38,692 nt of DNA. It comes from an uncultured Prochlorococcus sp. GTDB taxonomy: Bacteria; Cyanobacteriota; Cyanobacteriia; PCC-6307; Cyanobiaceae. A program made the translations under genes and the position numbers. The stretch spans positions 1 through 38,692 of the forward strand of contig CACPKH010000012.1 of the NCBI GenBank assembly GCA_902634515.1, read 5' to 3'. Below are positions 18,415-19,309 of this stretch, piece by piece. Numbering within the stretch: position 1 is the stretch's first letter; each line of letters begins with the position of its first letter. Below the pieces are notes generated by a model. The model ran no database searches. It was not told the origin of the DNA and saw nothing but the letters and a program-made list of their open reading frames with translations.

Positions 18415-18485
18415 GGCGGCATGGCCAAGTGGTAAGGCAGAGGATTGCAAATCCTTTATCCCCAGTTCGAATCTGGGTGCCGCCT
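18415..18485 (+). tRNA. tRNA-Cys (anticodon GCA)
   Basis: A 71-nt cloverleaf: acceptor GGCGGCA/TGCCGCC with discriminator T, D-arm GCC...GGC, anticodon stem GAGGA/TCCTT around TTGCAAA (anticodon GCA), T-arm CCCAG-TTCGAAT-CTGGG. CCA is not encoded. It is followed at once by a T-rich run (TTTTTCTTTTTTCT) that could end transcription. The reverse strand across it is open, which falsely extends the neighbouring glycosyltransferase frame. Confidence 0.97.
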
Positions 18486-18781
18486 TTTTCTTTTTTCTCC
18501 AGATCAACTGTAGAAACTCAATTATAAGATCTCTCTTTCTCATGTAGATTTCCGAGATGTTCTATATAGAAAATAGGATATGACAACGATCTGGTTAATG
18601 AAAGCCAGCTCAAATCTAGGTACCGTTTTTAACAATCTTCTCCAAGGGCTATACCCTAACCTTCACAATTGCTATTGGATGCTAGAGGAATTTCAAACGC
18701 AATTCAGTAAAACACTTTTTATTCCACTCAATATTTTCATATCGTTAAGACAAAACCAAAAAACTTCTATAAAAAAGGAAG
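18486..18781. other. Gene-poor stretch between tRNA-Cys and the small RNA candidate
   Basis: About 300 bp. A 74-codon frame on the plus strand (18580-18804, MTTIWLMKASSNLG...) is the only notable opening. It has no recognisable family, and its stop lies inside the hairpin of the small RNA candidate on the other strand, so I consider it probably noncoding. The region next to the tRNA is T-rich. No other feature seen. Confidence 0.5.
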
Positions 18782-18811
18782 AAAAAGGCGCCCTCAACGA
18801 GTAGCGCCTTT
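18782..18811 (-). terminator. Intrinsic terminator of the small RNA
   Basis: On the reverse strand AAAGGCGC pairs with GCGCCTTT (18804-18811 with 18784-18791) around a 12-nt loop and is followed by TTTTTC. On the forward strand the U-tract is only TTTA, so the reverse orientation is favoured. Confidence 0.7.
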
Positions 18812-18836
18812 ATGGACAAGTGTGTGAGGAGTGTCC
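18782..18836 (-). ncRNA. Candidate Yfr-type cyanobacterial small RNA
   Basis: The reverse strand gives a compact transcript of about 55 nt. Hairpin 1 has stem GGACA/TGTCC (18832-18836 with 18814-18818) and displays the loop CTCCTCACACACT. Hairpin 2 is AAAGGCGC...GCGCCTTT with a 12-nt loop, followed by TTTTTC, a good intrinsic terminator. A TATAGT box 7 nt upstream would start transcription at the first G of hairpin 1. The loop contains the CUCCUCACAC core that is ultraconserved in Yfr1. The Yfr2 family is described as carrying a near-complementary motif. The locus is not next to guaB/trxA, the usual Yfr1 site, so a family name is not assigned. Confidence 0.65.
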
Positions 18837-18842
18837 TTTATT

Positions 18843-18848
18843 ACTATA
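18843..18848 (-). promoter_or_regulatory. -10 box of the small RNA
   Basis: TATAGT on the reverse strand, one base from TATAAT, six bases before the expected first G at 18836. No good -35 box is seen, which is common for picocyanobacterial promoters. Confidence 0.5.
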
Positions 18849-19126
18849 CCAATCTCAAAGAAAATTTTATAAATTTCTTGCAAGACAAAATTTTTTGACT
18901 AATGAAACACTTATGAAGTTAGTTATCCAAAGCTTGCATCAAACATTCATAACAGCCTCTTTTGGAGCAAAAAGTTGATCTATCTTATTAGCTCCTTCAC
19001 TAACCACAGAGAAGTGAATCACTTTCTCAGATATATATTTGAAAAATTTTAAAGCGTAAAAAAAGCAAAAGAAATTGAATTTGCTAGATAAAGGAAAAAT
19101 GAGAACTTGAAAAATATTAAGAGATT
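18849..19126. other. Gene-poor stretch, one doubtful 64-codon frame
   Basis: Very AT-rich. The reverse strand has a 64-codon frame (18939-19133) with a hydrophobic middle and the tail SEGANKIDQLFAPKEAVMNV. I cannot link it to any family, and its start overlaps the likely promoter of the 43-residue gene. It might be a decayed gene or chance. No other feature seen. Confidence 0.4.
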
Positions 19127-19177: not shown

Positions 19178-19309
19178 ATGGCGCCAAGAGTCCAACCACA
19201 AGAGAACCTATATGGGTTTTTTGCTGTTGTTCAAATTTCAGCAATCATCATCGCTTCTCTTGGTGCTCTATTAGGATATGAAAAAGTATTCTTCCCTTTC
19301 TCAGGTTGA
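19178..19309 (+). CDS. Small one-helix membrane protein (43 residues), unknown function
   Basis: ATG at 19178 to TGA at 19309. The N-terminus MAPRVQPQENLYG is followed by a single hydrophobic helix, FFAVVQISAIIIASLGALLG, then YEKVFFPFSG. Size and shape resemble the tiny subunits of photosystems, cytochrome b6f or NDH-1, but I do not recognise it as any named one (it is not PsaM, PsaX, PsbX, PetM or an Hli protein by motif). A TTGTCA/TATAGA pair lies at a suitable distance upstream. It is too short for most gene callers. It faces the four-cysteine gene at 19425. Confidence 0.6.
   Translation: MAPRVQPQENLYGFFAVVQISAIIIASLGALLGYEKVFFPFSG

Follow-up and report, generated by a model that had tools for sequence, protein, structure and literature searches.

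The described RNAs closest to the element reported here are Yfr10 and Yfr1. In Yfr10 the motif is held in a loop atop a stem (PMC2518516, PMC6778093). High-light strains carry Yfr10 upstream of Yfr2 homologues (PMC6778093), and the published coordinates of MED4 Yfr10 begin at 346661 (PMC2518516). In MED4, Yfr10 pairs through its motif with Yfr2 and with the ppa mRNA, and replacement of UCCU by AAAA abolishes ppa binding. Yfr2 competes, and the pulled-down Yfr10 targets number in the hundreds, many of them in coding regions (PMC6778093). Yfr10 has been detected by Northern blot in strain SS120 (Lambrecht et al., PMC6778093), for which it was proposed that Yfr10 takes over the work of Yfr1 (PMC6778093). 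SS120 and MIT9211 are the two low-light strains long listed as the only cyanobacteria lacking Yfr1 (PMC2190773). Yfr1, an RNA found in nearly all cyanobacteria, has its seat between guaB and trxA and displays the ultraconserved seed ACUCCUCACAC as a single strand between two stem-loops; in the RNA described here the same seed, again followed by a 3' terminator, forms part of a 5' hairpin loop.

The window is 38,692 nucleotides of DNA from an uncultured Prochlorococcus. It forms contig 12 of the G000 genome assembly, which has 41 contigs and is 66% complete. Its minus strand holds, from 18852 to 18778, an extended -10 box, a 5-bp hairpin with the loop CTCCTCACACACT and an intrinsic terminator. 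We consider it very likely that this element encodes a stand-alone, trans-acting small RNA of the Yfr10 type. Such an RNA is already described in kind; what is new is an orthologous Yfr10-type member in an uncultured Prochlorococcus genus.

A small RNA gene on the minus strand

A covariance model built without this genus matches the minus strand of the window at 18778-18839 with 69.9 bits (E ~1.5e-15), which gives the approximate extent of a Yfr10-type small RNA gene found in 9 genomes of 3 genera. The model comprises seven sequences from other genera with equal loop length; this set was used because a MAFFT alignment of 11 leave-out sequences placed the 3' arm wrongly at shorter loops. On the Yfr1 loci tested, the same model scores at most 13.8 bits. 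The extended -10 promoter TTGGTATAGT, recognised from the sequence, lies at 18843-18852 (minus strand) with its hexamer TATAGT at 18848-18843. The approximate 5' end of the RNA is at 18839-18836 and its 3' end falls in the T run at about 18782-18778. The 5' hairpin (18814-18836, GGACA-CUCCUCACACACU-UGUCC) presents the Yfr1/Yfr10 motif and is supported by the fold and by covariation. Its loop CUCCUCACACACU, at 18819-18831, is a putative pairing element, as suggested by near-invariance in 14 sequences and by complementarity to GUGAGGAG of the Yfr2 of the same genome. The intrinsic terminator GGCGCUACUCGUUGAGGGCGCC with its T run occupies 18782-18811, where the minus strand (18811-18782) reads AAAGGCGCUACUCGUUGAGGGCGCCUUUUU; it too rests on the fold and on covariation. 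Folding of the 60-nt RNA yields -20.2 kcal/mol (z = -3.7), a value equalled by 1 of 200 shuffled sequences. The preliminary description had placed a near-consensus -10 box, a hairpin with the motif in its loop and a terminator here on the minus strand; all three were found in the sequence and the fold, and the fold confirms that the motif lies within a hairpin loop rather than between two stems.

General annotation gives little sign of the gene. A promoter and terminator scan of the window lists neither the promoter nor the terminator of the RNA, since a -35 box is not recognisable and the terminator stem is bulged. At gathering thresholds, Rfam reports two tRNAs in the window and nothing else, and a DNA similarity search of phage records found nothing.

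Comparison with congeners sets the element apart from its surroundings. In three genomes of the genus (G000-G002) the promoter and RNA form a near-identical island, laid out as TTGGTATAGT, a few variable bases, AAGGACACTCCTCACACACTTGTCC and the terminator, within spacer DNA that is barely alignable. The stretch TTGGTATA is present in all nine copies (9 genomes, 3 genera), upstream of which the DNA has diverged. The retention of TTGGTATA and of the terminator in the nine genomes suggests a short free-standing RNA with a promoter and terminator of its own. An alignment of 14 sequences from several genera shows paired stems and a nearly invariant loop. Compensatory changes occur in 7 of 15 pairs and 99% of cells are paired; none of 500 shuffles reached as high, and no slid register of the alignment approaches the observed covariation. 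The 5' hairpin contributes G-C/C-G compensatory changes in two of its five pairs and the terminator changes on both sides in 5 of 10. The sequence comparisons thus point to a real, well conserved, functional RNA unit. The model match, the covariation and the conserved island likewise support the earlier proposal of a small RNA with the Yfr1 seed on this strand.

The tRNA-Cys locus and the absence of Yfr1

The RNA lies next to tRNA-Cys (GCA; 18415-18485, plus strand; ARAGORN and Rfam), a conserved neighbour outside the RNA itself. The same tRNA and a conserved 43-codon frame flank the RNA in this genome and in G001, G002, G012, G089, G116, G063 and G101. Beyond the small frame follow a 208-aa protein and then purM, and behind tRNA-Cys a lipid-A-disaccharide-synthase-like gene. 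For G001 this covers the near neighbours, and for G126 the RNA and its promoter. The neighbour tRNA-Cys is seen at loci L073, L074, L092 and L174-L178. The place had been called unexpected; in fact the tRNA-Cys neighbourhood recurs across three genera. The tRNA-Cys locus is the conserved site of this RNA in the lineage of SS120- and MIT9211-like genomes. Among Yfr1-bearing genera nearly all examined copies lie elsewhere, the exception being L156 with tRNA-Cys some 700 bases off. The neighbouring lipid-A-disaccharide-synthase-like protein is 70% identical to that of Prochlorococcus sp. AG-363-N16, and G002 and AG-363-N16 are identical in sequence at the RNA locus.

The 43-codon frame (19178-19306, plus strand; MAPRVQPQENLYGFFAVVQISAIIIASLGALLGYEKVFFPFSG) is 72-91% identical across the three genera and has no match in Pfam or NCBIfam; its product has the look of a small, conserved membrane protein.

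As the preliminary description had it, guaB and trxA are absent from the immediate surroundings of the RNA. It had also considered a Yfr1 paralogue and suggested looking for a second copy near guaB. Both genes are on contig 1 of G000 with an intact spacer of 203 nt, in which the motif ACTCCTCACAC can be matched no better than with four mismatches. The spacer of G001 resembles it, and the control spacers of G018 and G060 contain the motif. An Rfam Yfr1 search of the whole 66% complete G000 assembly returned no match. With this empty spacer and no Yfr1 found anywhere in the genome, there is nothing for the RNA to be a paralogue of.

This absence extends across a lineage. Yfr1 scores above its cut-off in 157 of 201 genomes of the family. 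In the 16 sampled genomes of genera g1 (that of the window), g11 and g62 it is found in none, and this RNA type is found in every one, with a best model E-value of 5.4e-16 or lower throughout. G012 probably corresponds to SS120 and G101 to MIT9211. In most genomes of this lineage the hairpin-loop RNA exists once, beside tRNA-Cys.

The Yfr1-less guaB-trxA spacers keep, before trxA, a stretch resembling ATGGCArGAATC.TTTTTT.AGGCAAAATAAATA (L106, on contig 1 of G000 at ~143 kb; L113, L105, L107, L108, L111 and L112). It translates as the mini-frame M-A-R-I-I-F-x-G-K-I-N, possibly a candidate leader peptide or RNA element, and cannot readily be seen in the two inspected spacers that contain Yfr1. 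In another genus, g9 (G010, G087 and G114; 95-99% complete), there is no Rfam Yfr1 match, yet ACTCCTCACAC is present. In G010 the Yfr10-type model finds nothing; g9 may have a diverged Yfr1 or a different carrier.

Assignment to the Yfr10 type

The best Rfam match at the locus is Yfr10 (RF02362) with 22.9 bits; as the gathering cut-off is 43, the RNA is classed as Yfr10-type, outside the strict Rfam family. Conversely, the model made from this RNA's group finds MED4 Yfr10 from 346661 onwards with 28.6 bits. Both cross-scores are partly due to the shared motif. What the RNA shares with Yfr10 (RF02362; MED4 Yfr10/Yfr18; SS120 Yfr10) is the architecture known from the literature, seen here in fold and covariation: a 5' hairpin whose loop contains ACUCCUCACACAC, followed by a terminator. 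It also shares a length of 55-80 nt, a free-standing intergenic gene and relatives upstream of Yfr2. Independent support for kinship comes from that position: across 8 genomes from other genera there are 12 cases in which a relative precedes a co-directional Yfr2/Cyano-1 by 32-35 nt. It differs from MED4 Yfr10 in the sequences of stem, linker and terminator, and from Yfr10 generally in standing beside tRNA-Cys instead of Yfr2 and in scoring below the Rfam cut-off. No Cyano-1 match was found on the minus strand near 18778-18839, so Yfr2 is not adjacent here. The low mutual scores and the scant sequence shared with MED4 Yfr10 outside the motif could instead mean a separate family with the same seed, in which display in a hairpin loop arose by convergence. 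In favour of convergence, the motif is also the only part reported as conserved in Yfr10 (PMC6778093). Since the architectures are alike and relatives stand in tandem upstream of Yfr2, as high-light Yfr10 does, we regard an origin independent of MED4 Yfr10 as unlikely. The earlier suggestion of a new family using the seed was too strong, as a motif loop atop a stem is the Yfr10 of the literature (PMC2518516, PMC6778093).

Other readings are less probable. A true Yfr1, relocated from guaB-trxA to the side of tRNA-Cys and altered in shape, would explain why the ultraconserved motif precedes a terminator hairpin and why the RNA occurs where Yfr1 is missing. We nevertheless consider it very unlikely, because Rfam Yfr1 (RF01116) reaches 12 bits here, well short of its cut-off of 38, the motif occupies a loop instead of the stretch between two stems, and RNAs matching the same model occur alongside genuine Yfr1 in many genomes (such as G003, G005, G008 and G060). 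Nor does the plus strand offer a better candidate. It carries the Yfr2 signature GUGUGUGAGGAG, and Cyano-1 (RF01701), which we take to be Rfam's Prochlorococcus Yfr2 model, matches it with 13.7 bits, as might be expected had a Yfr2 RNA been read on the wrong strand, a possibility that the preliminary description raised. That score is far below the cut-off of 41, a proper match of 55.3 bits is located on another contig (contig 17:8757-8822 of G000), and promoter and T run suit the minus strand alone, so that a functional plus-strand RNA is extremely improbable. The Yfr2-like look of the plus strand follows from sequence complementarity; Yfr2/Cyano-1 differs from the RNA in strand and structure and is a separate gene. 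Finally, there might be no small RNA at all, the motif having arisen by chance in a hairpin (attenuator or terminator) that belongs to a neighbouring transcript. By itself the 10-mer CTCCTCACAC is within chance expectation, about one per genome; it has one copy in the 1.19 Mb assembly, and so does a reversed control pattern. The arrangement as a whole exceeds chance because it combines a conserved island of promoter and RNA, a 69.9-bit model match and covarying pairs. Against diverged spacers, an island with its own promoter, together with the Northern signal of the SS120 relative (PMC6778093), makes a fortuitous motif highly improbable.

The ncRNA Yfr103 is multi-copy and has homologues across many marine Synechococcus (PMC5069720); it was set aside because most large Synechococcus-like genomes gave our model nothing to match.

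Predicted pairing and the replacement of Yfr1

Expression in the window's organism is suggested by analogy with the Northern signal of SS120. In the SS120-like G012, where the RNA is at 1596003-1596064 on the minus strand, ACTCCTCACAC occurs at one other place, within an open frame exceeding 900 codons, and by this exclusion the SS120 transcript is very probably, on sequence grounds, the orthologue of the present locus. RNA polymerase would start at about 18839-18836 on the minus strand from TTGGTATAGT and stop near 18780, giving an RNA of ~55-60 nt. At the top of the 5' hairpin, CUCCUCACACAC would remain unpaired. This loop could then pair in trans with GUGAGGAG-like mRNA stretches, in ribosome-binding sites or coding parts, and also with its complement in Yfr2, an RNA that would compete for it. 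By analogy with MED4 Yfr10, binding of Yfr2 and of mRNAs by the loop is the most likely mode of action.

Pairing with Yfr2 is in keeping with calculation. The sequence CGUGAGGAG of the contig 17 Yfr2 and the RNA loop form a duplex of -15.1 kcal/mol, an energy that 4 of 4974 random 66-nt segments from the window attain. We tested the loop by itself because the full-length duplex is uninformative, the terminator arms dominating it: full-length RNA and Yfr2 give -21.4 against a mean of -21.1 for shuffled Yfr2, which is no difference. Perfect GTGAGGAG(2-11)ATG sites are no more frequent than reversed ones in G000-G002 (2, 4 and 3 versus 3, 4 and 3); the count speaks neither for nor against targets, because the sites reported so far mostly lie away from start codons. 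We infer what the RNA targets, how it acts and that it stands in for Yfr1.

It is quite possible, though we hold this tentatively, that the low-light lineage made up of the window's genus and the SS120- and MIT9211-like genera dropped Yfr1, leaving the hairpin-loop RNA as the sole source of CUCCUCACAC and in charge of the essential Yfr1 targets. In this lineage, which lacks Yfr1, this RNA is the sole intergenic carrier of the motif found and so probably covers part of the work of Yfr1. The near-complete genomes G012, G101, G063 and G116 contain no second intergenic copy of the motif; a second one does occur in G089, again of this type, and a further motif RNA could sit in the missing parts of the 66% complete G000. 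The co-distribution of the RNA with loss of Yfr1 agrees with replacement and is no proof of it, as one inherited loss could account for the pattern in all three genera.

The present data add a probable locus for SS120 Yfr10 and place the same RNA at the same site in a MIT9211-like genome and in a third, uncultured genus, with synteny across Yfr1-less genera and support from covariation. Because the RNA is present wherever this lineage lost Yfr1 (all 16 sampled genomes), the proposal that Yfr10 replaces Yfr1 becomes testable with a defined gene. The new covariance model covers low-light Yfr10-type RNAs that mostly fall below the Rfam Yfr10 cut-off. Rfam Yfr10 scores above cut-off in 10 of the 201 family genomes and the group model has a match at E <=0.01 in 72; the Rfam family looks too narrow.

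Some genera have amplified the Yfr10-type RNA; the window's genus, which lacks Yfr1, has one copy. The uncultured low-light genomes G021, G102, G065, G151, G009 and G022 have four to seven model matches each, several of them 32-35 nt upstream of Yfr2.
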